DNA of 64,000 bases, taken from the NCBI GenBank assembly GCA_937135955.1, contig CAKZOB010000053.1, positions 1 to 64,000 of the forward strand, given 5' to 3'. Of this stretch, positions 12,642 through 28,604 are shown piece after piece. The stretch's first letter is position 1; each line of letters opens with the position of its first letter. The notes under the pieces are model-generated. The model saw nothing but the letters and a program-made list of their open reading frames with translations, searched no databases and had not been told where the DNA came from. Origin of the DNA: an uncultured Anaerolineales bacterium (lineage in GTDB: Bacteria; Chloroflexota; Anaerolineae; Aggregatilineales; Aggregatilineaceae). The position numbers and the translations under genes were made by a program.

Positions 12642-12647
12642 GCGCGC

Positions 12648-14396
12648 ATGGCCGAAGCATTGATCGTCCTGACGATAGGGTTGCCCTGGCTGGGCGCGTT
12701 GCTGGTCTGGGCGGCAGGTGACCGCCGTCCGCGGGAGCAACACGCGCTGGCCGTGACGTTCTCCGTGTTGGCCGCGCTGGCTGCGCTGGCGCTGATCCCG
12801 CAGCACACAGCGGATGTCGCCCTGCGCGTGGATGCGGGCGGCGTGTTCGGCGACTTCACCTTCGTGCCGGACGGCCTGGGCGTCTTTCTGGCGGCGGTGG
12901 CGACCGTCGTGGGCTGCCTGGCGGTGATCTTCTCCGTGGACTACATGCGCGGCGAGGCCCAACTGGGCCGCTACTACGCGCTGGTGCTGCTCTTCATCGG
13001 CGCAATGGTTGGGTTGGTGCTGACGGGCAGCCTGCTGTTGCTGTTCGTTTTCTGGGAGATGACGGCGCTGTGCTCCTACGCGCTGATCTCGTTCTACAAC
13101 GACGATCCCAAAGCCGTCGCGGGCGGCATCAAAGCGCTGGTGATGACACAGGTCGGCGGCGTAGGGCTGCTGGCTGGCGCGCTGTTGAGTTACGCCTACC
13201 TGGGCGACGCGCAGATCAACACGCTGCTGTCGCGCGGCACGACGCTGCCAGCGGGCGTGCTGACCGCACTGGCCTTCGGCGGGCTGATCGCCGCCGCGGC
13301 CAAGTCGGCGCAGGTGCCGTTCCACACCTGGCTACCGGGAGCGATGGAAGCGCCCTCGCCGGTCAGCGCGCTGATTCACGCCGCGACGATGGTCAATGCG
13401 GGGGTGTATCTGCTGGCGCGTTTCTACCCGCTATTTTCCGGCGTAGAGGGCTGGACGACGGCGGTGACAGTCGTGGGGCTGGCGTCGGCGCTGTCGGCGG
13501 CGCTGATGGCAACCGTCGCGCATGACCTCAAGCGCGCCCTGGCCTACTCGACCATCAGTCAGTTGGGATACATGGTCTATGCGGTGGGCGTGGGGGCGAT
13601 CTTCGCCAGTCAGTTGCACCTGCTGAGCCACGCCGTGTTCAAGGCGCTGCTCTTCCTGGCGGCGGGCGCGGTCATTCACAGCACTGGCACGCGCGACATA
13701 CGGCAAATGGGCGGGTTGGGCAAGCAAATGCCGTTTGCCCGCGCTGTCTTCGTGATTGGCGCGCTGGCGCTGGCGGGCGTGCCCATCCTCAACGGTTTCT
13801 GGAGCAAGGAACTGATTCTGGAACATGGTCTGCACGACGGCCCGGCCTGGGCCTACGCGGGGATGCTGCTCGGCGCGGGGATCACGGCGCTCTACACCCT
13901 GCGCATGACCTGGCTGGTGTTCTACGGACGGGCGCGCTTCAAGGGGCACGCGCACGACGCCGGCCCGGCCATGCGCCTGGCAATGGGTGCCCTGGCGGTG
14001 GGCGCGCTGACGACCTGGCTGCTACTGGGGCTGTTCGGCGACCTGCTGGAGGAAAGCCTGCCTTTCCATCACCTGCACGTCGAATCTGGCCTGACGTTGA
14101 TCGAGGAAATCGTCACGGCACGGGCGACATTCGTCGCGCTGGCAGCGGTGGCTCTGGGCGCGCTGGCCTGGTGGCGACGCACCGACCTGGGCCTGTTGAG
14201 CGAACTGTTCGCCCCGCTGGGCCGCGCCGCGGCTGACGATTTCGGCTTCGAGCGGCTCAACAGGGCGGTGGTGTCGGCAACCATCCGCGCCGGAGAGACG
14301 TTGCGCGGCACTCAGACGGGCCGTCTCAACTGGAATGTGCTGGGCATTCTGGGCGGCCTGCTCGCCGTCCTGGCCTTTCTGACCTGGGGGGCATAG
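12648..14396 (+). CDS. Antiporter-like proton-translocating subunit, NuoL/MrpA type
   Basis: A 582-aa membrane subunit of the NuoL/MrpA/HyfB family. The N-terminal half contains VTFSVLAALAALAL and the FSVDYMRGE loop. The conserved channel glutamate is in FVFWEMTALCSYALISFYN, near residue 135. Central lysines and histidines appear in AAKSAQVPFHTWLPGAMEAP and SALIHAATMVNAGVYLLARF. The broken helix region is SHAVFKALLFLAAGAVIHST. The C-terminus has extra helices but no long lateral amphipathic helix, as in hydrogenase-associated forms. It would pump ions using energy from ferredoxin-dependent H2 chemistry. Confidence 0.93.
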   Translation: MAEALIVLTIGLPWLGALLVWAAGDRRPREQHALAVTFSVLAALAALALIPQHTADVALRVDAGGVFGDFTFVPDGLGVFLAAVATVVGCLAVIFSVDYMRGEAQLGRYYALVLLFIGAMVGLVLTGSLLLLFVFWEMTALCSYALISFYNDDPKAVAGGIKALVMTQVGGVGLLAGALLSYAYLGDAQINTLLSRGTTLPAGVLTALAFGGLIAAAAKSAQVPFHTWLPGAMEAPSPVSALIHAATMVNAGVYLLARFYPLFSGVEGWTTAVTVVGLASALSAALMATVAHDLKRALAYSTISQLGYMVYAVGVGAIFASQLHLLSHAVFKALLFLAAGAVIHSTGTRDIRQMGGLGKQMPFARAVFVIGALALAGVPILNGFWSKELILEHGLHDGPAWAYAGMLLGAGITALYTLRMTWLVFYGRARFKGHAHDAGPAMRLAMGALAVGALTTWLLLGLFGDLLEESLPFHHLHVESGLTLIEEIVTARATFVALAAVALGALAWWRRTDLGLLSELFAPLGRAAADDFGFERLNRAVVSATIRAGETLRGTQTGRLNWNVLGILGGLLAVLAFLTWGA

Positions 14397-14397
14397 C

Positions 14398-15885
14398 ATG
14401 GACGCTTTCGTGTGGATGATCCTGTTGCCACTGGCCGCCACGCCTGCTGTCTACCTGGCCGGTCGTGCGACTAAACCGCGCGGCGTGATTGCGCGGCGCG
14501 CGGCGTTGCCTGTGTTGCTGGCGACCTGGGTTGCCTTCGGCCTGGCTGTGTCCGACTTCGACGCGCACGGCGCAGCAACCTACACCCTGGGCACACTGGC
14601 GCTGCGCTGCGACGGGCTGAGTCTGTTGCTGGCGGCACTGACGCTGGCGCTGGGCACGCTGGTGCTGATCTATTCCGGGCCGTATCTGCGCGGCGAACCG
14701 GGCCAGGAGAAGTACTACGCCTCGCTGCTGGCCCTGCTGGGCGTGATGATGGGCCTGGGCTGCGCGGGCGACCTCTTCAACCTGTGGGTCTGGTTCGAGG
14801 CGATGGCGGTCGCGTCGTTCCTGCTGGTCATGTTCTATCACGAGCAGGCGCACGCCCTCGAAGCGGGCCTCAAATACCTGGCGCAGAGCGCGGTTGGATC
14901 GTCGTTGGTGTTGCTGGGCATTGCGCTGGTGTTGGCGCAGACGGGCACGCTCGATCTGGAGGCCATTCACACGGCGGCTCTGCCCTCGGCAACGCTGCTG
15001 GCAGCGGGGGCGCTGTTCGTCATCGGCTTCGGTGTCAAGGTGGCATTGGTGCCGCTGCACACCTGGTTGCCGGACGCGCACTCGCAGGCCCCCAGCGGGA
15101 TCAGCGCCATGCTCTCCGGCGTGGTGATCGAGGCCGGGCTGGTGGCCTTGTTGCGGGCACTGGCAGCGCTGGCGGGCGTCACGACCGCCTGGGGCGAACT
15201 GCTGATGATCTTCGGCGCGCTGAACATGGCCGCGGGCAACCTACTGGCCCTGCGGCAGACGCAGGTCAAGCGCCTGCTGGCCTACTCCAGCCTGAGTCAC
15301 ATCGGCTATATGCTGGTCGGGCTGGGCATCGCCCTGCACGTGCACGACGCGACAGGCGCAGAAGGTGGGCTATTCCATCTGCTCAATCACGGGCTGATGA
15401 AAGGGCTGGCCTTCCTGGCTGTCGGCGCGCTGATGTACGCGCTGCACCTGACCAGCGGTCATGATCACCGTCCCCTGACCATCGCCGACCTCAGCGGCGC
15501 GGCCACGCGCTATCCGTTGGTGGCGCTGGCGCTGAGCGTGGCTGTGCTGGGGCTGGGTGGCTTGCCGCCGTTGGCTGGCTTTATGTCCAAGTGGCAGATT
15601 TTCGTGGCAGGCTTCCGCACGCGCGACGGCTGGATCGAGGCGCTGGTGATCTTCGCCGCGCTCAACAGCGTGCTCTCGCTGGCCTACTACGCCCCGCTGG
15701 TCAACACCATCTACCGGCGGCAACCGTCGGCAGGCGTGCAGAGCGGGCGGGCCTTGCCGCTGGCGATGACCGCACCGCTGATCGCGCTGGGGCTGGCGGT
15801 AATTGTGGTCGGCGTGTGGCCGGGGACGTTGCGCTGGCTGGCCGAACCGGCGGGCCGGGCGCTGCTGGCCGCGTTCGGTGGATGA
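14398..15885 (+). CDS. Antiporter-like proton-translocating subunit, NuoM/NuoN/MrpD type
   Basis: A 495-aa second antiporter-like subunit, starting two bases after the stop of the first. The key motifs are the glutamate in FNLWVWFEAMAVASFLLVMF (near residue 135), VALVPLHTWLPDAHSQAPSG, and the lysine of the broken helix in LLAYSSLSHIGYMLVGLGIA. The helix-12-type lysine is in LLNHGLMKGLAFLAVGALMY. About 14 transmembrane helices are expected. Together with the NuoL-like gene this gives two pumping modules, more than in the minimal Ech enzymes. Confidence 0.93.
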   Translation: MDAFVWMILLPLAATPAVYLAGRATKPRGVIARRAALPVLLATWVAFGLAVSDFDAHGAATYTLGTLALRCDGLSLLLAALTLALGTLVLIYSGPYLRGEPGQEKYYASLLALLGVMMGLGCAGDLFNLWVWFEAMAVASFLLVMFYHEQAHALEAGLKYLAQSAVGSSLVLLGIALVLAQTGTLDLEAIHTAALPSATLLAAGALFVIGFGVKVALVPLHTWLPDAHSQAPSGISAMLSGVVIEAGLVALLRALAALAGVTTAWGELLMIFGALNMAAGNLLALRQTQVKRLLAYSSLSHIGYMLVGLGIALHVHDATGAEGGLFHLLNHGLMKGLAFLAVGALMYALHLTSGHDHRPLTIADLSGAATRYPLVALALSVAVLGLGGLPPLAGFMSKWQIFVAGFRTRDGWIEALVIFAALNSVLSLAYYAPLVNTIYRRQPSAGVQSGRALPLAMTAPLIALGLAVIVVGVWPGTLRWLAEPAGRALLAAFGG

Positions 15886-15912
15886 GGCAACAGGGATCAA
15901 CGAGGCACAGGC

Positions 15913-16227
15913 ATGGAAGACATTTTGCTGGCCCCTCTGGGCGCGTTCGTGGTGTACCTGGCGTTGGTAGCCGGTCTCTCTGGCTTCGGGCGATTGCTGG
16001 CCGGTCCGGCGCAGTCGTCGTCGCTCAAGTCGAGCATCTACGCTGGCGGCGAGGCGTCGCCGCAACGCCCGGCGGTGCCCGGTTACCGGCCCTTTTTCGT
16101 GATCGCGCTGTTCTTCGCCGTGCTGCACCTGGGCGTGCTGGTGCTGGGCAGCAGCGACCTGTCGGCGTTGGCCGGTGTCTACCTGCTGGGGTTGGGGTTG
16201 GCGCTGGTGACGCTGATTCTGGGATGA
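15913..16227 (+). CDS. Small membrane subunit, NuoA-like
   Basis: A 104-aa protein with three predicted helices. After the first helix a loop carries SIYAGGEASPQRPAVPGYRP, matching the YECG(E/V) loop of NuoA in position and charge. Then comes PFFVIALFFAVLHLGVLVLG, the counterpart of NuoA's second helix, where the usual conserved aspartate and glutamate (FDVE) are replaced by LHLG. It links the antiporter-like arm to the hydrogenase module in the gene order. The assignment is by pattern and position. Confidence 0.7.
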   Translation: MEDILLAPLGAFVVYLALVAGLSGFGRLLAGPAQSSSLKSSIYAGGEASPQRPAVPGYRPFFVIALFFAVLHLGVLVLGSSDLSALAGVYLLGLGLALVTLILG

Positions 16228-16320
16228 GTCTGGAGTCAAGAGTCCGGAGTGAGCGGGGCTGCTTGGTGTGGCCCTATCACTTACCATTGGCAACGGCAGA
16301 CGACAACGGGAGAGGCAACG

Positions 16321-16842
16321 ATGGAGTTCAACAAGACCTGGCAGGATATGCTCGAACAGCTCAAGACCTGGGCGCGGGTGAACTCGCCCTGGGCCATTCA
16401 CTTCAATAGCGGCTCGTGCAACGGCTGCGATATCGAGATTCTGGCCACGCTCACCCCGCGCTACGATATGGAGCGCTTCGGGCTGAAGTTGCAGGGCAGC
16501 CCGCGCCATGCGGACGTGTTGATCTGCACCGGTCCGGTCACGCGGCAGGCCCGCGACCGCCTGATCCGCATCTACGAGCAGATGCCAGACCCGAAGTTCG
16601 TCATCGCCGTCGGGTCGTGCGCTTTGAGCGGCGGCGCGTTCCAGGGGTGCTACAACATCCTGGGCGGCATTGATCAGGTGCTCCCTGTGGATGTCTATGT
16701 GCCCGGCTGCCCTCCGCGCCCGGAAGCGATCATTGACGGCGTGGTCAAGTTGCTGGAGCAACTCAAGGCCGGTTACCAACCCGCGGCGCGCCGTTCGGGA
16801 GTGCTGCGCCCTGTCCCCGTGCCGGTGACGGACGCTGGCTAG
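16321..16842 (+). CDS. [NiFe] hydrogenase small subunit, group 4 (NuoB-like)
   Basis: A 173-aa electron-transfer subunit that binds the proximal [4Fe-4S] cluster next to the active site. The ligands are visible as SGSCNGCDIE (Cys33, Cys36), VGSCALSGG (Cys100) and VPGCPPRPEA (Cys130). The CNGCDIE form is typical of group 4 hydrogenases (EchC, MbhJ, HyfI). I chose the ATG at 16321 because the longer open frame begins in the upstream gap with non-conserved residues. The 93-base gap before it contains a GAGTCTGGAGTC-type repeat fragment, which breaks the otherwise tight spacing of the operon. Confidence 0.93.
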   Translation: MEFNKTWQDMLEQLKTWARVNSPWAIHFNSGSCNGCDIEILATLTPRYDMERFGLKLQGSPRHADVLICTGPVTRQARDRLIRIYEQMPDPKFVIAVGSCALSGGAFQGCYNILGGIDQVLPVDVYVPGCPPRPEAIIDGVVKLLEQLKAGYQPAARRSGVLRPVPVPVTDAG

Positions 16843-16861
16843 GCGACTGTGAAGAGAGGCT

Positions 16862-17335
16862 ATGGAGACTGAGACCATGCTGAAAGCGGCTGCCCGCCTG
16901 TTGCAACGGTGGACGCAGGCAACGGTGACGCCAGAGCCGGAACGCCTGGACGTGACCCTGGACGCCGCCGACCTGGTGCCTGCCGTCGCCGCCTTGCAGG
17001 AGGCGCGTTGGGGCTATCTGGCGGCGATCACCGGCGTTGACCTAGGGCCGGAGGCGGGCGAGATCGAGTTGCTCTATCACTTCTGCGCGGGCGCGGCGGT
17101 CGTCACCCTGCGCGTGCGCACGCCGCGCAACCAGGCGTTCGTGCCCAGCATCTGCGACAGCGTGCCATCGGCCAGCTTCTATGAGCGCGAACTGATGGAG
17201 ATGCTGGGCGTCACCGTGGCCAACACGCCCAACACCGACCGCCTGTTCCTGCCGGACGACTGGCCGCAGGAGGTGTATCCGCTGCGCAAAGACTTTCGGC
17301 TGGAAGACGCACCATTGCCGGGGAGTGACACATGA
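16862..17335 (+). CDS. Hydrogenase/complex I 30-kDa-type subunit (NuoC-like)
   Basis: A 157-aa soluble subunit of the NuoC/EchD/MbhK family, which helps dock the large subunit. The conserved core appears as GYLAAITGVDLGPEAGEIEL and ASFYERELMEMLGVTVANTP, ending with LPDDWPQEVYPLRKDF, the family's C-terminal signature. It binds no cofactor. Its stop overlaps the start of the large-subunit gene by four bases. The start at 16862 may be replaced by the second Met five codons on. Confidence 0.92.
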   Translation: METETMLKAAARLLQRWTQATVTPEPERLDVTLDAADLVPAVAALQEARWGYLAAITGVDLGPEAGEIELLYHFCAGAAVVTLRVRTPRNQAFVPSICDSVPSASFYERELMEMLGVTVANTPNTDRLFLPDDWPQEVYPLRKDFRLEDAPLPGSDT

Positions 17336-18513
17336 CTGCAGAGCGCGAACCCTTTCGCATTCCCATCGGCCCGCAACACCCGTCGCTGAAGGAGCCGGGG
17401 CACTTCGAATTCTCGGTAGACGGGGAGATCGTCACGCAGGCGTCGTTACGGCTGGGCTACGTACATCGCGGCATCGAGAAAGGCGCGGAACAACGATCGT
17501 GGGTGCAGGCGCTCTATCTGCTGGAGCGCGTATGCGGCATTTGCTCGCACGTGCACGCCACCGCCTATTGCCTGGGGGTGGAAAAACTGGCGGGGGTGGA
17601 AGCGCCGCCGCGCGCACAGGCTATCCGTTCCCTGGTGGCGGAACTGGAGCGCATTCACAGCCATTTGCTCTGGCTGGGTGTCGCCGCGCACGAGGCCGGC
17701 TTCGACATGCTCTTCATGCATAGCTGGCGCGACCGCGAGACGGTGATGAACCTGCTGGAGGGCATCACCGGCAACCGCGTCAACTATTCGGCCAATCTGC
17801 TGGGCGGCGTCAAGTGCGACATTGATCAGCGCCTGGCCGATGCCATCCGTGCCGGGCTGGACTACCTGGAAGAACGCACCCAACACTACCTGGACGTGGT
17901 GCTCAACGATGCGCTGTTCCTGCGCCGGACGCGCGGCATCGGCGTGATGAGCCGCGAGGACGCCGAGCGCCTGGGGGTGGTGGGGCCGACGGCGCGCGCG
18001 TCGGGCGTGGCCCGCGATGTGCGGGTGGACGCTCCCTACGCCGCCTATCGCACGCTGCCTGTGCAGATCGTCACCGAGATGGCGGGCGACCTGCAGGCGC
18101 GTTTCATCGTGCGCGTGCGCGAACTCTTTGAGACTTACCGGCTGATCCGGACGCTGCTGGATACGCTGCCCGAAGGGGAACTGACCGTGCGTATTCCGCG
18201 CCGTATCCCGCCCGGCGAGGCAATCAGCCGCGTCGAAGCGCCGCGCGGCGAACTGTTCTACTACCTCAAGAGCAATGGCAGCGATCAGCCGGAGCGGATC
18301 AAGATTCGCACCCCTACTCTGCCCAACTTCGCCTCGGTGCTGGTGCTGACAGTGGGGCGGCAACTGGCCGATGTGCCCATGATCCTGGCGGGCATTGACC
18401 CTTGCTTCTCGTGCAACGACCGTATGGTCGCCATTCACGATACGGGGGAGGGACGCGACCGGCGCTGGACATGGGAACAACTCCGGCAACACGGGATCGA
18501 GGTGTACCGATGA
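17332..18513 (+). CDS. [NiFe] hydrogenase large subunit, group 4 (NuoD-like)
   Basis: The catalytic subunit that produces or oxidises H2 at a Ni-Fe centre. In 393 aa, both metal-binding CxxC motifs are intact: L1 ERVCGICSHVHA (Cys68, Cys71) and L2 DPCFSCNDR (Cys358, Cys361, ending at Arg364). This separates it from true NuoD, which has lost these cysteines. A 29-residue tail (365-393) follows Arg364, the position at which HycI/HyaD-type endopeptidases cut, and a HycI-like gene is the last of this operon. The N-terminus IPIGPQHPSLKEPGHF and YVHRGIEK are standard for the complex I/hydrogenase superfamily. The exact group 4 subgroup needs a tree. Confidence 0.95.
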   Translation: MTAEREPFRIPIGPQHPSLKEPGHFEFSVDGEIVTQASLRLGYVHRGIEKGAEQRSWVQALYLLERVCGICSHVHATAYCLGVEKLAGVEAPPRAQAIRSLVAELERIHSHLLWLGVAAHEAGFDMLFMHSWRDRETVMNLLEGITGNRVNYSANLLGGVKCDIDQRLADAIRAGLDYLEERTQHYLDVVLNDALFLRRTRGIGVMSREDAERLGVVGPTARASGVARDVRVDAPYAAYRTLPVQIVTEMAGDLQARFIVRVRELFETYRLIRTLLDTLPEGELTVRIPRRIPPGEAISRVEAPRGELFYYLKSNGSDQPERIKIRTPTLPNFASVLVLTVGRQLADVPMILAGIDPCFSCNDRMVAIHDTGEGRDRRWTWEQLRQHGIEVYR

Positions 18514-19433
18514 GCACACTCAACGCGCTGATCACGCTGGTAGTCTTCCCTGGCGGGCTGGCCATCCTGCTGACGGGCATGATCTACGAGTGGGTGGATC
18601 GCAAGCTAGTGGCGCGCCTGCAGAACCGCATGGGGCCACGCTGGTATCAGCCGCTGGCGGACACCGTCAAGCTGCTGGCCAAAGAGGAAGTGCTGCCCAA
18701 TGGCGTTCACGCGCAGATGTTTTACGCCCTGCCGGTGATCGCCCTGGCGGGCGCGCTGACGGCGACGCTGTACGTGCCGGTCTTCGGCTTGCGGCCCGCC
18801 TACAGCTTCAACGGCGATTTGATCGTCACCGTCTACCTGCTCAGCGTGCTGACGCTGTGCATGGGGCTGGCGGGAGCCAACACGCTCAACCGCTATGCCC
18901 TGATCGGCGCGACGCGCACGCTGACGCAGTTGTTCTCCTACGAAGCGCCATTTCTGTTGGCGCTGCTCGGCCCGGCGCTGGTGGCCGGTAGCTGGCAGAT
19001 CGGCGAGATCGCGGACTACGCCGAACGCCACTGGCTGATCCTGACACAGCCGGTGGGCTTCCTGGTGGCGATCATCGGGCTGATGGGCAAGCTGGAACTG
19101 CCCCCCTTCGACGCGCCAGAAGCCGAGACGGAGATCGTCGCGGGCGCGCTCACCGAGTATAGCGGGCGCGGACTGGCGTTGTTCCGGCTGGGCAAGGGCG
19201 TGGAACTGGTGATCGGCCTGACGCTGGTCGCCGCCTTCTACCTGGGTGGCGTGGCCAACCCGCTGTTGTTCTTCGCCAAGACGCTGCTGTTGCTGGCGGG
19301 CATGGCGGCCATGCAGACGTTGCTCACCCGCCTGCGCATTGATCAGACGGTCGGTCTGTGGTGGCGCTATGGGGCGCTGCTGGTGTTGGCGCAATATCTG
19401 GCGGTCATTGTGTGGCAAGGAGTGATGGCATGA
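18510..19433 (+). CDS. Hydrogenase membrane anchor subunit, NuoH/HyfC/EchB-like
   Basis: A 307-aa membrane subunit with about eight helices, linking the catalytic module to the pumping arm. Visible hallmarks are YEWVDRKLVARLQNRMGPRW in the first cytoplasmic loop and the acidic funnel PFDAPEAETEIVAGALTEYS near residue 200. I start it at 18510, where ATGA overlaps the stop of the large-subunit gene. The longer open frame would intrude into that gene. The next gene starts within its stop codon in the same ATGA manner. Confidence 0.94.
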   Translation: MSTLNALITLVVFPGGLAILLTGMIYEWVDRKLVARLQNRMGPRWYQPLADTVKLLAKEEVLPNGVHAQMFYALPVIALAGALTATLYVPVFGLRPAYSFNGDLIVTVYLLSVLTLCMGLAGANTLNRYALIGATRTLTQLFSYEAPFLLALLGPALVAGSWQIGEIADYAERHWLILTQPVGFLVAIIGLMGKLELPPFDAPEAETEIVAGALTEYSGRGLALFRLGKGVELVIGLTLVAAFYLGGVANPLLFFAKTLLLLAGMAAMQTLLTRLRIDQTVGLWWRYGALLVLAQYLAVIVWQGVMA

Positions 19434-19855
19434 AACTGACAGGGATGTGGCGTGATGCGTTGAGTGGGTTGGTGCGCCGTCCGGCGACGCAGCGCTACCC
19501 GTTCGAGCGGCTGCCCGCGCCGGAACGTCTGCGCAGCAAGCTACACTGGGACTTGTCGCAGTGCACCGGCTGTAGCCTGTGCGCCAAAGACTGCCCGGCC
19601 AACGCCATCGAGATCATCGCGCTGGATCGCAAGGCGAAGCGTTTTGTCTTCCGCTACCATGTGGATCGCTGCACTTTCTGCGGGCAGTGCGTGGTGAGCT
19701 GCCGCCAGAATTGCCTGACCATGTCCACTGGCGAATGGGAACTGGCTGCGCTGGATCGCCGCAGGTTCCAGGTGCACTATGGAAAAGAGGACGATGTCGC
19801 CGCCGTCCTGGATGAACACCCTGACGACGACGTGGCAGCAACTGGCGCGGGCTGA
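19430..19855 (+). CDS. Hydrogenase 2x[4Fe-4S] ferredoxin subunit (NuoI/HyfH-like)
   Basis: A 141-aa iron-sulfur subunit that relays electrons between a soluble carrier, most likely ferredoxin, and the catalytic pair. It has two CxxCxxCxxxC motifs: Cys45/48/51/55 (QCTGCSLCAKDCP) and Cys81/84/87/91 (RCTFCGQCVVSCR). The proline normally after the last cysteine is Arg in the second motif. The tail is acidic (LDEHPDDDVAATG). No NADH-binding subunits (NuoEF) are in the operon, which supports ferredoxin as the partner. Confidence 0.93.
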   Translation: MKLTGMWRDALSGLVRRPATQRYPFERLPAPERLRSKLHWDLSQCTGCSLCAKDCPANAIEIIALDRKAKRFVFRYHVDRCTFCGQCVVSCRQNCLTMSTGEWELAALDRRRFQVHYGKEDDVAAVLDEHPDDDVAATGAG

Positions 19856-20309
19856 TCGTTCGCCGCGCGTGGCCGTGCTGGGCATTGGCAACACGCTGAA
19901 TGGTGACGACGCGGCGGGAGTGGTAATCGTGCGCCGCCTAGCGGCAACGCTGCCACCCCGCCCCGACCTTCTGCTGCTGGAGTCTGGCAGCGCGCCGGAG
20001 AACGAGACGGGCACGCTGCGGCGGTTCGCGCCCGACCTGGTGCTCTTTCTGGATGCAGCGCAGATGGGCGCGCCGCCGGGGACGGTGCGCTGGGTGCCTT
20101 TCGACGCGCTGACCGGACTGAGCGCCTCCACCCATACCCTGCCTTTGTCGCTGCTGGCGACCTACCTGCGCGCCGAACTGGGTTGCCAGGTGGCGCTGCT
20201 GGGCGTTCAGCCCGCGTGCAACGAGATCGGCACGCCCCTCTCTGCGCCAGTGTGCACGGCCATCGAGGCGGTGGCTGATGCGCTGGCGGACTTCTTCCTC
20301 TCTATATAG
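19779..20309 (+). CDS. hycI: Hydrogenase maturation endopeptidase, HycI/HyaD family
   Basis: A protease that removes the C-terminal peptide of the hydrogenase large subunit after nickel insertion. The glycine-rich first strand RVAVLGIGNTLNGDDAAGV carries the conserved Asn-Asp pair and a metal-binding acid. LLLLESGSAPENETG and DLVLFLDAAQMGAPPG supply the second and third acidic sites. The HTLPLSLLATYL segment holds the conserved histidine. The start is uncertain: 19779, 19794 and 19812 are all in frame and overlap the ferredoxin-subunit gene by 44-77 bases. It matches the 29-residue tail present on the large subunit encoded upstream. HypA-F genes are not in this window. Confidence 0.88.
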   Translation: MEKRTMSPPSWMNTLTTTWQQLARADRSPRVAVLGIGNTLNGDDAAGVVIVRRLAATLPPRPDLLLLESGSAPENETGTLRRFAPDLVLFLDAAQMGAPPGTVRWVPFDALTGLSASTHTLPLSLLATYLRAELGCQVALLGVQPACNEIGTPLSAPVCTAIEAVADALADFFLSI

Positions 20310-21569: not shown

Positions 21570-21602
21570 GACAGGCGGGGTGACAACCCGCCTGTCTTTT
21601 TT
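21570..21602 (+). terminator. Rho-independent terminator after aroE
   Basis: A perfect 10-bp stem (GACAGGCGGG, 21570-21579, with 21587-21596), a seven-base loop and a run of six T (21597-21602). It isolates aroE from the sulfur operon. Confidence 0.92.
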
Positions 21603-21633
21603 GTGACGAATGGAACATGCGGGATTTATGCGT

Positions 21634-21665
21634 GTATCCGATAATGCGGATACTTCGATATATCG
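21634..21665. promoter_or_regulatory. Candidate ArsR operator: two adjacent palindromes
   Basis: GTATCCG-N6-CGGATAC (21634-21653) is a perfect inverted repeat with GATAAT overlapping its spacer. The exact palindrome CGATATATCG (21656-21665) follows after two bases. Both lie just ahead of the ArsR-family start codon, where an autoregulatory operator would be expected. Confidence 0.6.
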
Positions 21666-21675
21666 TCATTTACTG

Positions 21676-22074
21676 ATGGAATTTTGCCCCATGGCCGATT
21701 TTGCTTCCCTGCACGAGCTGCCCGACCCGCCCGCCCAGGAATTCGAATTGCTGCACGAGCGCCTCTGCCGCGCTATCGGCGACCCCCGCCGTCTGATGAT
21801 CCTCTACGCCCTGCGCAAACGCCCCTGTTATGTGGTCGAACTGGCCGAGCAACTCGGCTTCCCTCAGTCTACCGTCTCGCGTCACCTCAACGCGCTGCTG
21901 GCGGGCGGTCTGGTGATCAAAGAGCGGCAGGGACAAACGGTCTACTACGCCCTGCGCGACCCTCGCATCATCGCGGCGCTGGAGATCATGCGGGCCATCC
22001 TGCACGACCTGGTACAGCAAACTGCGCGGGTTGTAGAGGGAACCCCAGGCGAAGAGCCAACGCATAGCGTCTAA
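21676..22074 (+). CDS. ArsR-family winged-helix transcriptional regulator
   Basis: A DNA-binding repressor of about 132 aa that presumably controls the operon it heads. After the start MEFCPMADF, the segment RLCRAIGDPRRLMILYALRK and the recognition helix LGFPQSTVSRHLNALLAGGL are standard ArsR. The wing is VIKERQGQTVYYAL. The alpha-3 metal site ELCVCD is reduced to RPCYVVELA with a single cysteine, so classical arsenic or cadmium sensing is unlikely. A second cysteine in the N-terminal EFCPM, if translated, could allow a thiol or persulfide switch like SqrR/BigR. The start may be 21676 or 21691; neither has a Shine-Dalgarno. It is followed by the cytochrome and YeeE genes on the same strand. 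Confidence 0.85.
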   Translation: MEFCPMADFASLHELPDPPAQEFELLHERLCRAIGDPRRLMILYALRKRPCYVVELAEQLGFPQSTVSRHLNALLAGGLVIKERQGQTVYYALRDPRIIAALEIMRAILHDLVQQTARVVEGTPGEEPTHSV

Positions 22075-22113
22075 GCGCCCGGTGGGGGCGTTGATGTTCC
22101 TTGAGGAGGAGGT

Positions 22114-22875
22114 ATGCGATCGCACCGGCTCATTATCCCCACTCTGGCCCTGCTGGGCCTGGTGCTGGTGTTGACCAGCGGCCTCTGGTTGCTGACCCCT
22201 GCGCCCGCTGCTGCACAGTGTGGCTCGCAGGCGTCGTCGTGCAAGAACTGTCACGAAGTCAACCAGAAGTACCCGGTCAACACGTCGGGCGACTGGCACA
22301 TCGCCCATGCCTTCGGCGATTTCTGCCAGTTCTGTCACGGCGGCAATGTACAGTCCAACGATGCCAGCCTGGCGCACGCCGATATGTTCTACCCCTTGCA
22401 AGACCCCGGCCTGAGTTGTGCGGCCTGCCACCCCGCCGACTTCGCCCAGAAAGCGCAGGTCTACGCCGTGGCGCTGGGTGTGACGGTCGGTGGAGGGGCG
22501 GACACCGGCGGGGACGATCCGGCGGACGAAGCGGCCATCTTCGCCGCGGCCACTGCCATCTACGCCCCGCCGCCGCTGGGAGCCGAAGGTCAGGCTGTGG
22601 TGCTCATTGACTACAACCGCCGCTACGAGCGCGACGTGCTCGGCAAACAGGACCCGCCGGACTGGAAGAATGGCTTGCTGGCGGTGATGGCGGTCTTTCT
22701 GGGCGGAGTGCTCACGGTCTCGGTCTGGCGCTTTGAGGGGCTGGGGCGCACCATCCGCGAACTGCGCGAGTCGCCCTTTCTGTTTGGCGATCCCAACGCG
22801 CCTCCGCCGGTCGCACCAGCCGAGATTCCAGGGCTGGATCGTCCGGTAGATGAGCGCGATCTACGCGATCTGTAG
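22114..22875 (+). CDS. Membrane-anchored triheme cytochrome c
   Basis: An extracytoplasmic electron carrier of 253 aa. Residues 7-35 form a signal sequence ending AAAQCG. Three CxxCH heme sites follow: CKNCH (43-47), CQFCH (71-75) and CAACH (102-106). Extra histidines (WHIAHAF, LAHAD) could serve as distal ligands. A long Ala/Gly-rich linker leads to one transmembrane helix near 185-205 (NGLLAVMAVFLGGVLTVSVW) and a short cytoplasmic tail. A GAGGAGGAGG Shine-Dalgarno lies just before the ATG. I do not recognise the exact family. By context it passes electrons to or from the molybdoenzyme encoded downstream. Confidence 0.85.
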   Translation: MRSHRLIIPTLALLGLVLVLTSGLWLLTPAPAAAQCGSQASSCKNCHEVNQKYPVNTSGDWHIAHAFGDFCQFCHGGNVQSNDASLAHADMFYPLQDPGLSCAACHPADFAQKAQVYAVALGVTVGGGADTGGDDPADEAAIFAAATAIYAPPPLGAEGQAVVLIDYNRRYERDVLGKQDPPDWKNGLLAVMAVFLGGVLTVSVWRFEGLGRTIRELRESPFLFGDPNAPPPVAPAEIPGLDRPVDERDLRDL

Positions 22876-22904
22876 GCGAACAGAGGCGGAAAGGAGAACG
22901 GCCT

Positions 22905-23516
22905 ATGCGTACAGTTATCGCTTATCTACGTCGTGACCTGTGGTCTCCCTACGTAGCCGGCGCGCTGCTGGGCCTGGTGGCGGTGCTGACCCTGTGGTCT
23001 ACCACCAGGCTGGACGATATGCCCGCCCGTATGCCCGGCGCTTCGGGCAGCTTCCAGAACCTGGCCGCCTACCTGGGGCAGGAACTCACCAGCACCCAAA
23101 AGGTGCTGGTCGAAGGGGGCGCGCCCATCATCGTGCCGCGTGAGGGGCTGGAAGAGCAATTCGTTTACTTCGCCTTCACCATGCCCAGGGGCATCACCTG
23201 GCAGGTGTGGATGATCATTGGCGTGTTCCTGGGAGCGCTGGCCTCGGCGCTGCTATCGGGCGGATTCCGCATCAGCGTGATGCCGCACACCACGCAATGG
23301 CAGACGGTCTTCGGGCCGCAGCCCTGGAAGCGCTGGGCGTTGGTGTTCGTCGGCGGGATCATCCTGCAGATCGCGGCGGGCGTGGCCGGCGGATGCACCA
23401 GCGGACTGGCCATTTCCGGCGGCGTACAACTCACTCCCGCTGCCTTCCTGTTCATCCCCGGCATGTTCATCTCCGGCATTGCGACAGCGTTACTGGTTTA
23501 CCGGCGGAGGTATTGA
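22905..23516 (+). CDS. YeeE/YedE-family sulfur transporter half, PmpA-like
   Basis: A 203-aa membrane protein. One helix lies near residues 15-32. A periplasmic insertion of about 75 residues follows, then three or four helices. The motif GGCTSGLAISG at 162-172 (Cys164) is the hallmark of YeeE/YedE (sulf_transp) proteins, which move thiosulfate or persulfide sulfur through conserved cysteines. Full-length YeeE proteins are about 350 aa, and here the family is split over two genes. It sits between a cytochrome c and the second half-transporter, all on one strand. The large insertion (MPARMPGASGSFQNLAAYLG onward) is unusual. Confidence 0.85.
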   Translation: MRTVIAYLRRDLWSPYVAGALLGLVAVLTLWSTTRLDDMPARMPGASGSFQNLAAYLGQELTSTQKVLVEGGAPIIVPREGLEEQFVYFAFTMPRGITWQVWMIIGVFLGALASALLSGGFRISVMPHTTQWQTVFGPQPWKRWALVFVGGIILQIAAGVAGGCTSGLAISGGVQLTPAAFLFIPGMFISGIATALLVYRRRY

Positions 23517-23519
23517 GCT

Positions 23520-24113
23520 ATGGAACCGCTCGATCAGTCTGTATGGGAACTGGGGCCGATCGTCATCGCGTTGCTGATGGGCTTTTTGTTCGGCTTTGCG
23601 TTGGATAAGGGCGGCATGACGCGCTACCACAAGATCGTCAACGTCTTTCGCTTCACCGACCTGGCCGTGCTCAAGTTCATGATGAGCGCCATGGTCACCG
23701 GCATGGTGGGCATCTACCTGCTGGTGTGGGCGGGCGAGGTCGAACTGACGGCGATCACGCCCACTGTCCCCCTCAAGAATTTCGTGGGCGGGCTGCTCTT
23801 CGGCGTGGGCATGGCGCTGGTGGGCATGTGCCCCGGCACCATGATTTCCGGCGCGGCGCGCGGACAGCTCGACTATCTAATCCCTGGCTTCGGCGGCTTT
23901 TTGACTGGCGCGCTGCTCTATGGTTTCCTCTACCCCACGATCACCGATCTGTTCGACGGTCTTAAGGACTACGGCAACACCAAGCTGCCCGAACTGTGGG
24001 ATCTCAGCCCGGTGCTGACCGTGCTGGTCTTCGCCGAGGCGATCCTGCTGTTGCTCTACCTGATCCACCGCCTGAACCTGCGCCGCAAAGACCGACTGGC
24101 CGCAGAGAGCTAG
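23520..24113 (+). CDS. YeeE/YedE-family sulfur transporter half, PmpB/DUF6691-like
   Basis: A 197-aa membrane protein with about five helices, the partner of the preceding gene and only three bases away. FGFALDKGGMTRYHKIVNVF at the start is the DUF6691 signature (usually SGMTxPxKVxxF). GMALVGMCPGTMISGAARG near residues 97-115 is the second cysteine motif (Cys104). With the upstream half it reconstitutes the two-cysteine pathway described for YeeE-type thiosulfate uptake. It may import sulfur for the cytoplasm or supply substrate to the periplasmic molybdoenzyme; direction and substrate are inferred. Confidence 0.86.
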   Translation: MEPLDQSVWELGPIVIALLMGFLFGFALDKGGMTRYHKIVNVFRFTDLAVLKFMMSAMVTGMVGIYLLVWAGEVELTAITPTVPLKNFVGGLLFGVGMALVGMCPGTMISGAARGQLDYLIPGFGGFLTGALLYGFLYPTITDLFDGLKDYGNTKLPELWDLSPVLTVLVFAEAILLLLYLIHRLNLRRKDRLAAES

Positions 24114-24122
24114 GAGGCAGCC

Positions 24123-26339
24123 ATGAGCGATCAACCAACCGAACGTGTTCCACGCCTCAATCGCCGCAAATTCCTGCAGGCCGCGGGTCTGGCGGGCACT
24201 GGGGTAGCGATCGTCGGGTCGGGTGTCGGGGATATCCGGCGCGCCGAAGCGGGCGGCAGCGTGGGGCATCTGCCGGGGTCATACGCAGACAAAATTGTGC
24301 CGACTCTGTGCGAGATGTGCGTCTGGCGCTGCGGGGTGCGCGCCAAAGTGATTGACGGGGTGATCGAGAAGCTGGAAGGCAACCCCGATCATCCGCACTC
24401 GGAAGGGTATCTGTGCGCGCGCGGGCAGGCCGGGCTGATGATGACCTACGACGAAGACCGCGTGCTGGAGCCGCTGATGCGCGTGGGCGAACGCGGTAGC
24501 GGGCGCTTCCGCAAGGTAAGCTGGGACGAAGCGCTCGACTACGTCGCCGACAAGATGCTCAAGATCAAAGAGAACTTCGGCCCGGAGGCGATGGTCTTCT
24601 CCAGCACACACAACCTCAGTCAGCCGCTCTTCGAAAATCTGCTCTACGGTTATGGCTCGCCCAACTACGGCACGCAGCGCAGCCTGTGCTTCAACGCCAT
24701 GGTCACCGCGCACCTGCTGACTTATGGCATCGAGGAGCCGGCCCGGCGCTATGAGGGCATGAACTACATCATCCTCACCGGACGCAACCTGTTCGGCGGC
24801 ATTTCTACCAGCGAGACGCGCGCGCTGATGCAGCGCATCGCTGAGGGCGCGCACGTGGTTTACCTCGACCCGCGCTTCAGCGAGACGGCGGCCAAGGCTG
24901 CCGAATGGCTGCCGATCAAGCCGGGGACGGATAGCGCCTTTATCCTGGCGCTGATCCATGTGATGATCCGCGACGAGCTATACGACAAATGGTTTGTCTC
25001 GCAATACACCGTCGGCTTCGACGAACTGGCTGAGGGCGTGCAAGACTACACGCCTGCCTGGGCGGCCAGGATCACCGAAATTCCAGAGGCGACGATCTAT
25101 CGCATCGCGCACGAATTCGCCGAAAACCGCCCCAACGCCTTCGCGCACCCCGGCTGGCGCACCAGCAATTTCATCAACAGTTTCCACACCGAGCGGGCCA
25201 TTGCCATCCTCAACGCGCTGCAAGGGTTGTGCCCGCAGCAGGGCGACTGCATGTTTCTTAGCGAAGCGTCCGTCGAGCTGGGCAAGCCACCGCAACCTGG
25301 CTATCCGCCCATCCGCGCCGCGCGGCTGGACGGCGTGCCCTGGAAGTACAAGTTCGTCCCGCCCAAGCTGGGCGTCTTCCAGGAACTGCGCGACGCCATC
25401 CTCAGCGGTGAACCCTATCAGGCGCACGGCTGGTTCATCGCCCGCCAGAACCCGATGATGAGCCTGCCGGAGCGCCAAAAGACCCGCGCCGCCTTCCAGA
25501 AGCTGGGCCTGGTGGTGGTGATGGACATCATCATGAACGATAGCGCCTGGTACGCCGACGTGGTATTGCCAGAAGCAAGCTATCTGGAGCGCTACGATCC
25601 GTTGCATCCAGTGGGACGGCGCGTCTTCCTGCGTCAGCCGGTGATCGAGCCGCGCGGGCAGTCGCGCAGCGCCCTGTGGATTTACAAGCAACTGGGCGAG
25701 CGGCTGGGCCTGGGCGACTACTTCCAGTACGAGGACGAAGAAGATTACCTGCGTCAGCAGCTCAAGCCCTGGACGGAGCGGCTGGGCATCACCCTGGATC
25801 AACTCAAGCAAACCGGCTACTTCGAGGTGCCCGACGGCTACGAAGGCCCGACCTACCGCTGGGACACGCCCAGCGGCAAAGTGGAACTGGCCAGCGAAAC
25901 GCTGCGCAACGCCGGCTACGACGCCATCCCCCGCTGGTACGACCCGCCCGAACCGGGCGAGAACGAGTTCTATCTGCTGACGGGCAAGGTGGGCCAGCAT
26001 ACGCAGTTCGCCACCCAGAACAACGCCTACCTGCACGAAGTGCGCCCCACCAATCAACTGTGGATGCACCCTTCCAAAGCCGCCGAGCGCGGCATCGCCA
26101 ACGGCGACCGCGTGCGGGTGACCAGCCCTGCCGGTTCGGTGGAGATCGAGGTCTGGCTGACCGAGGGCATTCGCCCGGACTGCGTCTATCTGACGCCAGG
26201 CTTCGGCCACGAGAGCCGCGGTCTGCGCAAGGCGTTCGGGCGTGGCGCGGCAGATAGCGACCTGCACCTGACCTTTACCGACCCGATCAGTGGTGGGCAG
26301 GCGCTGACACAGACGTTCGTGACGGTGGAGAAGGTGTGA
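24123..26339 (+). CDS. Tat-exported molybdopterin oxidoreductase, PhsA/PsrA-like catalytic subunit
   Basis: A DMSO-reductase superfamily enzyme, probably acting on thiosulfate, polysulfide or a related sulfur compound outside the membrane. In 738 aa, a twin-arginine signal occupies residues 1-45 (NRRKFLQAAGLAG, Arg14-Arg15). The [4Fe-4S] site is CEMCVWRC plus CARG (Cys63, 66, 70, 98). The likely molybdenum ligand is Cys189 in RSLCFNAM. Pterin-binding stretches include ILTGRNLFGGISTSETRALM and YLDPRFSETAAKAAEWLPIK. A C-terminal molydop_binding domain starts near LLTGKVGQHTQFATQN. Reductive or oxidative direction cannot be settled; partner cytochromes c in the same operon allow oxidation. Confidence 0.9.
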   Translation: MSDQPTERVPRLNRRKFLQAAGLAGTGVAIVGSGVGDIRRAEAGGSVGHLPGSYADKIVPTLCEMCVWRCGVRAKVIDGVIEKLEGNPDHPHSEGYLCARGQAGLMMTYDEDRVLEPLMRVGERGSGRFRKVSWDEALDYVADKMLKIKENFGPEAMVFSSTHNLSQPLFENLLYGYGSPNYGTQRSLCFNAMVTAHLLTYGIEEPARRYEGMNYIILTGRNLFGGISTSETRALMQRIAEGAHVVYLDPRFSETAAKAAEWLPIKPGTDSAFILALIHVMIRDELYDKWFVSQYTVGFDELAEGVQDYTPAWAARITEIPEATIYRIAHEFAENRPNAFAHPGWRTSNFINSFHTERAIAILNALQGLCPQQGDCMFLSEASVELGKPPQPGYPPIRAARLDGVPWKYKFVPPKLGVFQELRDAILSGEPYQAHGWFIARQNPMMSLPERQKTRAAFQKLGLVVVMDIIMNDSAWYADVVLPEASYLERYDPLHPVGRRVFLRQPVIEPRGQSRSALWIYKQLGERLGLGDYFQYEDEEDYLRQQLKPWTERLGITLDQLKQTGYFEVPDGYEGPTYRWDTPSGKVELASETLRNAGYDAIPRWYDPPEPGENEFYLLTGKVGQHTQFATQNNAYLHEVRPTNQLWMHPSKAAERGIANGDRVRVTSPAGSVEIEVWLTEGIRPDCVYLTPGFGHESRGLRKAFGRGAADSDLHLTFTDPISGGQALTQTFVTVEKV

Positions 26340-26352
26340 GGGAGGCGCGCCG

Positions 26353-27093
26353 ATGGCCGACATCAAGAAATACGGCTTTGTGATCGATCCGCGGCGTTGT
26401 ATTGACTGCCGGGCCTGCCTGGTGGCCTGCCGCGCCGAGTGGAACACTCCCCCAGGCCAGACGCGCATCTGGGTGCACACCGACGGGCCGCAGGGCATCT
26501 TCCCCGCCGTGACGCAAACCTGGGTGCCCGTCCAGTGTCATCACTGCGAAGACCCCTGGTGTGTGGACGCCTGCCCCACCGGAGCGACCTTCAAGCGCGA
26601 AGACGGGCTGGTGCTCATTGACGAGGAAGCGTGCATCGGCTGTGGGCTGTGCGTCAACGCCTGTCCCTATCAGGTGCGCTTCCGCAATGAGGTGACGGGC
26701 AAGGCCGATAAGTGCAACGCCTGCTTTCACCGCGTGGATCGCGGCGAATTGCCTGCCTGCGTGGCAACCTGCATCGGCGGGGCGCGCCTCTTCGGAGATT
26801 TCAACGATCCGGAGAGTCCGGTCAGCCGCGCCATCAAAGACCAGGTAGTCTACCGCCCCATCACGCCGGAAGTGGACACCGGCCCCATGACCTACTATCT
26901 GTCCCCGCCCGATGCCTCAGCGGTACAGGTGTCGCCGCAGCCGCGCAAAGACCTGCCCGCCGAGGTCTTCTGGCGCAAGTGGGCCATTCCGATCGTCAAA
27001 GTGGCGGTGGGCGCGACCTTCCTGGGCCAGGCGGGCGCGTTCATCCTGCAATTGCTGCGTGGCGAGAACGAATACGAAGACGGCGCGGTCTAA
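26353..27093 (+). CDS. Four-cluster Fe-S electron transfer subunit, PhsB/FdnH-like
   Basis: A 246-aa electron-transfer subunit carrying four [4Fe-4S] motifs. Cluster groups are CIDCRACLVAC (16-26), CHHCEDPWCVDACP, CIGCGLCVNACP and CNACFHRVDRGELPACVATC, totalling sixteen cysteines. After the ferredoxin fold a single hydrophobic segment near 212-232 (PIVKVAVGATFLGQAGAFIL) anchors it, as in FdnH. It has no signal peptide and presumably travels with the catalytic subunit through Tat. It lies thirteen bases after the catalytic gene and sixteen before the cytochrome b gene. Confidence 0.93.
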   Translation: MADIKKYGFVIDPRRCIDCRACLVACRAEWNTPPGQTRIWVHTDGPQGIFPAVTQTWVPVQCHHCEDPWCVDACPTGATFKREDGLVLIDEEACIGCGLCVNACPYQVRFRNEVTGKADKCNACFHRVDRGELPACVATCIGGARLFGDFNDPESPVSRAIKDQVVYRPITPEVDTGPMTYYLSPPDASAVQVSPQPRKDLPAEVFWRKWAIPIVKVAVGATFLGQAGAFILQLLRGENEYEDGAV

Positions 27094-27108
27094 GGAGGGA
27101 GGATAGCC

Positions 27109-27951
27109 ATGTCAGACGAAACATTGACGCTTGAACAGCGCAAACGGCTTCAGGAACAGGTGTTGGTCAAGCATCATCTGGCCAATATCCTCACGCACTG
27201 GTTCAACGTGGCCATGTGGCTGTTGCTGTTGCCGACGGGCATCGGCATCCTGCTGGAGAAGACCTATCCGGCTTCTTCTACCGCCTGGAATGACCTGATG
27301 CGCCAGATTTTCGGCAGCACGGCCTCGCTCATCTACTGGCATGGCGTGTGGGGGCAAATCTGGATCGCGGTGCTCACCTTCAATATCTTCGTGGGCTTCC
27401 GCAAATACTTCCTCACCTTCGCCTCGACGCGCATGTTGCTGGACAAAGACGACCTCCGCTGGCTGATGATCAAGCCCTGGCACATGCTGGGTCTGCGCAA
27501 GCATGTGCCGCTGCCGCCCCAGGACGCCTACAACGCCGGGCAGAAGCTCTATAGCTACCTGGTGGTCATCGGCTCGTTCTGGATTGGCCTGACGGGCATG
27601 ATCATGGTCTATTCGGAACACATCCCGACTTCCTGGCAGTGGGTCATTCAATGGGCCATGCCCATTCACTTCCTGTCGGCAGGCATCACCTTTGCTGGCG
27701 TGATCATTCACGTCTATATGGGCGCCATCTTCCCGGAAGAACGGCAGGCGTTCTTCAGCATGTTCACCGGCAAGGTCAACGGCCTGTACGCCTATCTGCA
27801 TCATCGCAAGTGGTATCTGCGCAAGATGGCGGAGAAAGCCGCCTGGGAAGCTGAATATCGCCGCCGCTACCGCGAACCGGCACAGGCTGAAGCGCCCCAG
27901 GCGAGCACTGCACCGGGCACAGCTTCTGCCGACGCGCCCGCAGGAGACTGA
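27109..27951 (+). CDS. Cytochrome b subunit, PhsC/FdnI-like
   Basis: The membrane subunit that exchanges electrons with quinone. In 280 aa there are four transmembrane helices. Histidines at 30 (LTHWFN), 78 (YWHGVW), 187 (MPIHFLSAG) and 201 (IIHVYMG) match the four heme-b ligands of FdnI. It is therefore the diheme cytochrome b type, not the NrfD-type anchor of polysulfide reductases. A charged C-terminus of about 50 residues ends in an Ala/Pro/Thr-rich tail. With the two preceding genes it forms a complete PhsABC-like quinone-linked enzyme. Confidence 0.92.
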   Translation: MSDETLTLEQRKRLQEQVLVKHHLANILTHWFNVAMWLLLLPTGIGILLEKTYPASSTAWNDLMRQIFGSTASLIYWHGVWGQIWIAVLTFNIFVGFRKYFLTFASTRMLLDKDDLRWLMIKPWHMLGLRKHVPLPPQDAYNAGQKLYSYLVVIGSFWIGLTGMIMVYSEHIPTSWQWVIQWAMPIHFLSAGITFAGVIIHVYMGAIFPEERQAFFSMFTGKVNGLYAYLHHRKWYLRKMAEKAAWEAEYRRRYREPAQAEAPQASTAPGTASADAPAGD

Positions 27952-27953
27952 CC

Positions 27954-28604
27954 ATGCGCCGCCTGTTGTGGATTCCGTTGCTATTGCTGCTGGGCACCGC
28001 GCTGGCCGCCTGTGAGGATGATCAGCCGCGCACGTCGCCCGATTCTGCCTACCAGGCTCCGGAGCCGACGACCGTCCCCGCCGCCGCCCCCGCCCCCGAC
28101 CGCGGTCAAACGCTCTACAACACGTGGCGCTGCGCGGGCTGTCATGGCGAGCAGGCGCAGGGCCAGGTCGGCGGGGCGCTGGCCGGTACCACGTTGCCTT
28201 TCGAGCAGTTCGTGCAGGCGGTGCGGCAGACGCGCCCGCCCAAGCCCGCTTTCAGCACCGCCGAACTGACCGATGGCGACGTGCGCGACATCTACGCCTG
28301 GGTGACTTCGTTGCCCGCGTCGGCAGAGGTGGCGGCTGCTGTGCAGCTTGGCCCTGGCGAAGTCTTGGGCATGAGCGTCTGGACACAGAGCGGTTGCGAT
28401 GCCTGTCATGGCGCGTTCGCCCAGGGATCGCCCTATGCGCCCGCGCTGGTCGAGACCGATCTCTCGCTGGACGATTTCCTGGCCGCGCTGCGCCGCGACG
28501 TGACGACCATCCCTGAGCACGGGCCGGACGCCATCAGCGACGAATGGGCCGCGCGGCTCTATCGCTGGCTGGTGGCGGGAGCATCCATCACCGGCGGATG
28601 TTGA
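27954..28604 (+). CDS. Diheme cytochrome c lipoprotein
   Basis: A periplasmic electron carrier of 216 aa. A lipoprotein signal ends at LAAC (Cys20), then a Pro/Ala-rich linker. Two cytochrome c domains carry CAGCH (60-64) and CDACH (148-152). Both domains share the same lengths and helices (RQTRPPKPAFS and RRDVTTIPEHG loops), so the protein looks like an internal duplication. It starts two bases after the cytochrome b gene and is the last gene of the sulfur operon. A hairpin follows its stop. The redox partner is presumably the triheme cytochrome or a terminal oxidase, by inference. Confidence 0.88.
   Translation: MRRLLWIPLLLLLGTALAACEDDQPRTSPDSAYQAPEPTTVPAAAPAPDRGQTLYNTWRCAGCHGEQAQGQVGGALAGTTLPFEQFVQAVRQTRPPKPAFSTAELTDGDVRDIYAWVTSLPASAEVAAAVQLGPGEVLGMSVWTQSGCDACHGAFAQGSPYAPALVETDLSLDDFLAALRRDVTTIPEHGPDAISDEWAARLYRWLVAGASITGGC

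Follow-up and report, generated by a model that had tools for sequence, protein, structure and literature searches.

A PhsA/PsrA-type molybdoenzyme operon of Anaerolineae and its near-obligate Rieske/cytochrome b/nine-heme cytochrome partner module

The window analysed here, 64,000 nucleotides of contig CAKZOB010000053.1 (assembly GCA_937135955.1) from an uncultured bacterium of the Anaerolineales (Chloroflexota), carries at 21676-28604 on its + strand an operon of eight genes in a row. These encode an ArsR-family regulator, a triheme cytochrome c, two half-length YeeE/YedE transporters, a catalytic molybdopterin subunit of the PhsA/PsrA type with its Fe-S subunit and cytochrome b membrane anchor, and a diheme lipoprotein cytochrome c. 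The same eight genes had been described in an earlier, sequence-only reading of the window and were borne out by their intergenic gaps of 2-39 bp and by Pfam and NCBIfam matches. The operon is real and conserved, but it proved to be only part of a larger two-locus system, the second locus being a module of bc-type cytochrome b, nine-heme cytochrome c and Rieske protein, which in the window genome (4.28 Mb in 93 contigs) lies on a different contig, C34.

The relation between the two loci was assessed across 396 sampled Anaerolineae genomes, in which a window-type PhsA was defined by at least 58% identity. The enzyme was present in 44 genomes and the nine-heme cytochrome in 43, and 40 genomes had the two together (Fisher p about 1e-46, a value overstated because related genomes are not independent). 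Expressed by carrier, the nine-heme cytochrome was present in 40 of the 44 genomes with a window-type PhsA, against 3 of the 352 genomes lacking the enzyme; in these three its gene was on a short contig that carried further genes of the system at the edge. In 12 of the 40 genomes, the window genome included, PhsA and the nine-heme cytochrome were on different contigs; some of these pairs may reflect assembly breaks, but the two contigs of the window genome run on for tens of kb further. None of the 15 genomes with only another class of Phs/Psr enzyme encoded the nine-heme protein, and the congeneric genome G003 (98% complete) lacked both it and the window-type PhsA. The nine-heme module is a near-obligate partner of the window-type PhsA, which strengthens the earlier proposal that the enzyme is wired both to quinone and to cytochrome c.

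Beyond the operon genes, the clusters of most relatives go on to encode the bc-type cytochrome b, the nine-heme cytochrome and the Rieske protein, the last sometimes followed by an FmdE/zinc-finger protein. Counting, here and for the operon genes below, only loci whose contig extends far enough, linkage was seen for the nine-heme cytochrome in 42/50, cytochrome b in 37/57, the Rieske protein in 31/47 and FmdE in 15/45. The unlinked module on C34 comprises cytochrome b (PF00033), the nine-heme cytochrome (located by sequence search at C34:37742-39037), a Rieske protein with intact ligands (PF00355) and FmdE. The nine-heme cytochrome has eight CXXCH motifs and a ninth of the form CXXCH or CX4CH; an in-frame TGA considered for the window genome's copy was ruled out, the frame being open across all nine heme motifs with no stop, and no profile or structure match supported an octaheme tetrathionate reductase. 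Across relatives, the paired ligands His97, His111, His198 and His213 of cytochrome b and both Rieske motifs (CxHxGC/CPCH) were invariant. In the closest relatives (L006, also L009 and L011) a Rieske-like protein seemingly lacks its ligands (CPEGGC/CVCRKR in L006), and these loci have no linked bc-type cytochrome b. Both features are retained at most of the other loci (L012-L084).

The nearest models for the partner module were those of the Geobacter ext cluster (extHIJKLMNOPQS), ExtM for the nine-heme cytochrome and ExtP and ExtQ for cytochrome b and the membrane parts, at scores well short of equivalogy (137-174 against a cut-off of 800 for ExtM, 201-224 against 290 for ExtP). The two resemble each other in their bc-type cytochrome b (ExtP/ExtQ-like) and Rieske protein (ExtO), and the nine-heme cytochrome resembles the N-terminal two thirds of ExtM. 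In contrast to the ext cluster, however, the module has nine hemes instead of twelve, no porin was seen, and its partner is a molybdoenzyme of the Phs/Psr type.

Scanning the GTDB species genomes identified 80 loci; almost all belong to Anaerolineae and one to Neomarinimicrobiota (Fidelibacterota). ArsR was retained in 56/65, the Fe-S subunit in 73/74 and the membrane anchor in 63/63; the triheme cytochrome (64/65) and YeeE (60/65) were likewise found around the relatives' enzyme, an outcome that leaves the earlier reading standing on this point. The diheme lipoprotein was the least conserved part of the operon, present in 10 of 61 assessable relatives. The grouping of these genes is not due to chance, since their order recurs in dozens of genomes whose catalytic subunits share 56-72% identity. 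Among 72 loci the anchor was of the FdnI type, to which that of the window belongs, in 16 and of NrfD types in 56 (48 long and HybB/HmcC-like, 8 short). Anchor types were intermixed across the branches of the catalytic tree (loci L005-L084) with gene order otherwise constant, and repeated replacement of the membrane anchor among relatives is suggested. A gene for a secreted tandem rhodanese recurred near the cluster in 15 relatives' loci, for example at L082:4680-5624. More distant Phs/Psr loci of Chloroflexota (L110-L113) held a catalytic and an Fe-S gene, along with an anchor gene where one was seen, and had neither YeeE nor the triheme cytochrome.

The catalytic subunit (24123..26339, + strand), which has a twin-arginine translocation (Tat) signal and an N-terminal [4Fe-4S] site and matches PF00384, PF01568 and PF04879, scored 601 bits against the NCBIfam PhsA model NF012032, compared with 267 for DmsA, 266 for formate dehydrogenase alpha, 151 for ArrA and 103 for TtrA. 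Its PhsA/PsrA type was thereby upheld over an arsenate or formate family, although 601 bits falls below the curated cut-off of 694 for a PhsA equivalog. The best match of solved structure was the polysulfide reductase of T. thermophilus (2vpw, 435 bits), and by profile score the subunit is assigned to the PsrA/PhsA/SrrA lineage of the dimethyl sulfoxide (DMSO) reductase superfamily. In the alignment the Mo-ligand Cys was present in all 81 sequences and the twin Arg of the Tat signal in 77. Of the two residues of T. thermophilus Psr that we take to be in the active site, His145 and Arg332, the equivalent of the former was invariant (81/81), while the column of the latter held Trp in 81/81, with an invariant Arg one column later that is shared with enterobacterial PhsA. 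A quick tree placed the catalytic subunits encoded beside YeeE and the triheme cytochrome in one clade with a support of 98 by the Shimodaira-Hasegawa-like approximate likelihood ratio test, leaving out T. thermophilus PsrA, E. coli plasmid PhsA and other Chloroflexota Phs/Psr; the deep branches of this tree are long and untrustworthy, and the reference PhsA and PsrA rows themselves sit on long branches.

Enterobacterial PhsABC has the same Tat-exported enzyme, Fe-S subunit and FdnI-type cytochrome b in the same order, with catalytic subunits about 34% identical to that of the window. The E. coli plasmid phsABC (L118), however, lacks cytochrome c, YeeE and ArsR, as well as a Rieske/nine-heme partner. 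It does adjoin a DASS-family anion symporter, so that the earlier view of phsABC operons as lacking a transporter does not hold in general. T. thermophilus PsrABC shares the family, the Mo-ligand Cys and the active-site His, whereas the window enzyme differs in the Trp at Arg332, in having an FdnI anchor in place of NrfD, and in its extra cytochromes and YeeE. We found no published description of the operon, its YeeE pair or the partner module in the open-access literature. The nearest account is that of Hug et al. 2013 (PMC3971608), who reported two octaheme cytochromes in operons of DMSO-reductase-family subunits in one Chloroflexi sediment genome, seemingly the same kind of linkage, in a single sentence of a main text that gives no gene order, family, partners or function.

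The Fe-S subunit (26353..27093, + strand; PF13247) is of a multi-cluster (four-cluster) electron-transfer type with a hydrophobic C-terminal helix and no signal peptide, and its best NCBIfam models were of TtrB, NrfC and DsrO types, every one below cut-off. The membrane anchor (27109..27951, + strand), a cytochrome b of the FdnI/PhsC type with a quinone site (PF01292; TIGR01583, 79.7 bits), was aligned to E. coli FdnI of formate dehydrogenase N (1kqf_C); His22, His30, His78, His187 and His201 were invariant, the expected heme-ligand histidines being kept, and no gene of the window operon matched NrfD in Pfam. The triheme cytochrome (22114..22875, + strand), with a signal peptide, three CXXCH motifs and a C-terminal membrane helix, belonged to no family in a Pfam search. 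Besides the three heme-binding His, its His62, His65 and His88 were invariant and an extra Cys36 nearly so, and a Cys-ligated heme, as in some sulfur cytochromes, is possible. Its helix was placed at 184-208 in a low-confidence AlphaFold model (mean predicted local distance difference test 57; that of the nine-heme cytochrome, 46, is likewise low). In the diheme lipoprotein (27954..28604, + strand; PF13442 twice) the lipobox Cys20 and both CXXCH motifs were invariant across 11 sequences.

The two YeeE/YedE genes are in reversed order, that for the C-terminal half (22905..23516, + strand; PF04143 positions 170-308) standing ahead of that for the N-terminal half (23520..24113, + strand; PF04143 positions 10-155). 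In the C-half an invariant GGCTSGL aligned, weakly, to the second Cys motif of Spirochaeta TsuA, and in the N-half a conserved Cys104 aligned to the first. The nearest known counterparts are the thiosulfate transporter TsuA and split half-size YeeE pairs. While both halves match the family of TsuA and their Cys motifs align with it, they are two separate proteins in contrast to the single chain of TsuA, and they scored only 24.5 and 28.7 bits against the TsuA equivalog model (cut-off 400).

The ArsR-family regulator (21676..22074, + strand) scored 81.4 bits against HTH_metalloreg, above the cut-off of 55, as a member of the ArsR/SmtB metalloregulator family. The longest open reading frame (ORF) begins at 21610, and within it lies a perfect palindrome, TATCCG-ATAATG-CGGATA (21635..21652), the presumed ArsR operator. 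Because of this position the start was placed at ATG 21676 or 21691, both of which the palindrome precedes. Of 52 loci, 26 had a site of the form TATNCG-N6-CGNATA, with at most one mismatch, upstream of arsR, whereas 0.37 would be expected from shuffles. With at most one mismatch to the somewhat stricter pattern TATYCGNNAATNCGRATA, the palindrome was the sole copy in the 4.28 Mb genome, and therefore ArsR, if it binds there as presumed, probably controls this operon alone. A CRP/FNR-like site, TTGTGA-N6-TCACAA, was present upstream of the operon in 33 of 52 relatives' loci against about 1 in shuffles, the window operon having a half-site only. One Cys of the regulator, C53 of the long ORF, was nearly invariant (96% of relatives); the equivalog model of BigR, a sulfite/sulfide sensor, gave 33 bits against a cut-off of 155, and C53 is the only conserved Cys. 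Between aroE and the operon, a consensus scan placed a terminator-like hairpin with a T tail (21570..21596, + strand). Such scanning gave 5 hairpins in the region against 3.8 expected by chance, and the separation of the operon from aroE by a terminator is thus suggestive at most.

From the observed gene content, conservation, cofactor motifs, co-occurrence and operator we infer, tentatively and at somewhat less than an even chance, a sulfur-compound oxidoreductase coupled both with the quinone pool and with a dedicated complex of Rieske protein, cytochrome b and nine-heme cytochrome, the oxidative direction being slightly favoured. The Mo site would lie on the outer, periplasmic face, where a reduced sulfur compound, presumably of the sulfide/polysulfide or thiosulfate class, would be oxidised. 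Electrons would pass through the Fe-S subunit to the FdnI-type cytochrome b, whose homology to formate dehydrogenase N would place their exchange with menaquinone close to the cytoplasmic side, and quinone would be reduced electrogenically. The Rieske/cytochrome b complex, in which the nine-heme cytochrome would take the role of cytochrome c1, would re-oxidise the quinol and pass electrons to cytochrome c and an oxidase. The connection between enzyme and partner complex would run, at the outer side, through the triheme and diheme cytochromes; the two YeeE halves would carry a sulfur species across the membrane, and ArsR would derepress this operon only, through its own palindrome. Oxidation is favoured because a dedicated quinol-oxidising partner fits an enzyme that feeds the quinone pool.

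Several observations weigh against this oxidative assignment. No sox or dsr genes were linked to the system, and a search for the ArsR operator at the C34 module, as a link between the two loci, found none, so that their co-regulation would be no more than a possibility. A heme-copper oxidase was encoded by the window genome and by 42 of the 44 carriers, compared with 243 of the 352 other genomes. This association fits the oxidative reading but was judged a weak guide to direction, because an oxidase is likewise encoded in all 15 genomes whose sole Phs/Psr enzymes are of the other class. Moreover, all characterised PsrA/PhsA/SrrA members are reductases (table in PMC10100899), which makes the reductive alternative a close second. 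Here the operon would encode a respiratory thiosulfate or polysulfide reductase of the PhsABC/PsrABC type, with the sulfur compound reduced at the Mo site, menaquinol oxidised at the FdnI-type cytochrome b and proton motive force spent when the substrate is thiosulfate; the cytochromes and the Rieske/nine-heme module would provide an alternative outlet for quinol electrons. It is in keeping with the PhsC/FdnI-type anchor of the window and the NrfD types of most relatives. A survey of Zodletone spring also lists PhsABC in a genome of the Chloroflexota family UBA6092 under thiosulfate reduction (PMC9040765), and a record named UBA6092 (L021) carries the present cluster. The near-obligate, quinol-oxidising Rieske/cytochrome b complex would, however, have no obvious role beside a reductase, the PhsA equivalog cut-off is missed, and the active site is unlike that of T. 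thermophilus Psr at Arg332. We regard the reductase as a real possibility, a little less probable than the oxidoreductase.

Reduction of selenite, tellurite or a related oxyanion is improbable. The selenite reductase SrrA does fall in the same lineage (PMC10100899, PMC7331816), and the partner parts best match ExtM, ExtP and ExtQ of a Geobacter cluster linked to selenite/tellurite reduction (PMC5877670). Yet the Ext scores are far under their cut-offs, the split YeeE pair points to sulfur, and the ext gene list includes no molybdoenzyme, the primary role of ext itself being open (PMC5877670). Less probable still is that the modules are associated by lineage history or co-transfer only and that the window operon functions alone. 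Transfer of a single block could account for joint inheritance where the genes are adjacent, as in most relatives, but the association persists where they are on separate contigs and G003 has neither. Returning to the sulfur oxidoreductase, it is conceivable, though unlikely, that operon and C34 module form one super-assembly in which the triheme cytochrome physically bridges the molybdoenzyme and a Rieske/cytochrome b/nine-heme quinol oxidase of its own; if so, sulfur oxidation and quinol re-oxidation would be coupled in one unit, an undescribed mode of sulfur respiration.

The second Phs/Psr class of Anaerolineae was 37-41% identical to the window enzyme (L154/G297, L156/G462, L155/G390 and L160/G407) and carried a single in-frame TGA, always at the same position, GG-U-[SA]S, which is occupied by Cys in T. 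thermophilus PsrA, L110 and L161; in the same search five further genomes had one TGA each. A hairpin follows the TGA, with the loop AGGTCT in three of the four, as in the E. coli fdhF selenocysteine insertion sequence. Its energies were not exceptional against shuffles, and SelA was found in the related genomes tested (G000, G068 and G095). The class probably consists of selenoproteins with the selenocysteine away from the Mo ligand. Another molybdopterin enzyme of the window genome with an Fe-S subunit, 26-29% identical, stands beside a small five-heme cytochrome at G000:C52:45000-64000 (L107). Within the window, an operon at 11761-20309 (+ strand) for antiporter-like subunits, NuoB/C/D/H/I-like proteins and a HycI maturation peptidase probably encodes a membrane-bound group 4 [NiFe]-hydrogenase and not a complex I fragment, because RVCGIC and DPCFSC, the two CxxC motifs, are both intact in its large subunit. 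Elsewhere in the genome (G000:C56:1-18000, L167), a secreted four-domain rhodanese adjoins a multiheme cytochrome and stands upstream of a sulfhydrogenase-like group 3 hydrogenase; adjacent to these is a 17-heme cytochrome with Fe-S and NrfD subunits.

Anaerolineae are abundant in sediments and bioreactors and are mostly described as fermenters. The window-type system was carried by about one in nine of the sampled Anaerolineae genomes (44/396). The near-constant pairing of the enzyme with the multi-heme complex suggests an undescribed, clade-specific, sulfur-linked respiratory system of two loci, common to many uncultured sediment bacteria. Its layout offers a simple marker, the PhsA clade together with the nine-heme cytochrome, and a concrete candidate partner enzyme is now at hand for the multiheme Rieske/cytochrome b complex of the Geobacter kind. 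If the system turns over sulfur intermediates, these bacteria would have an energy-conserving role in the sulfur cycle that plain annotation as phsABC has overlooked.

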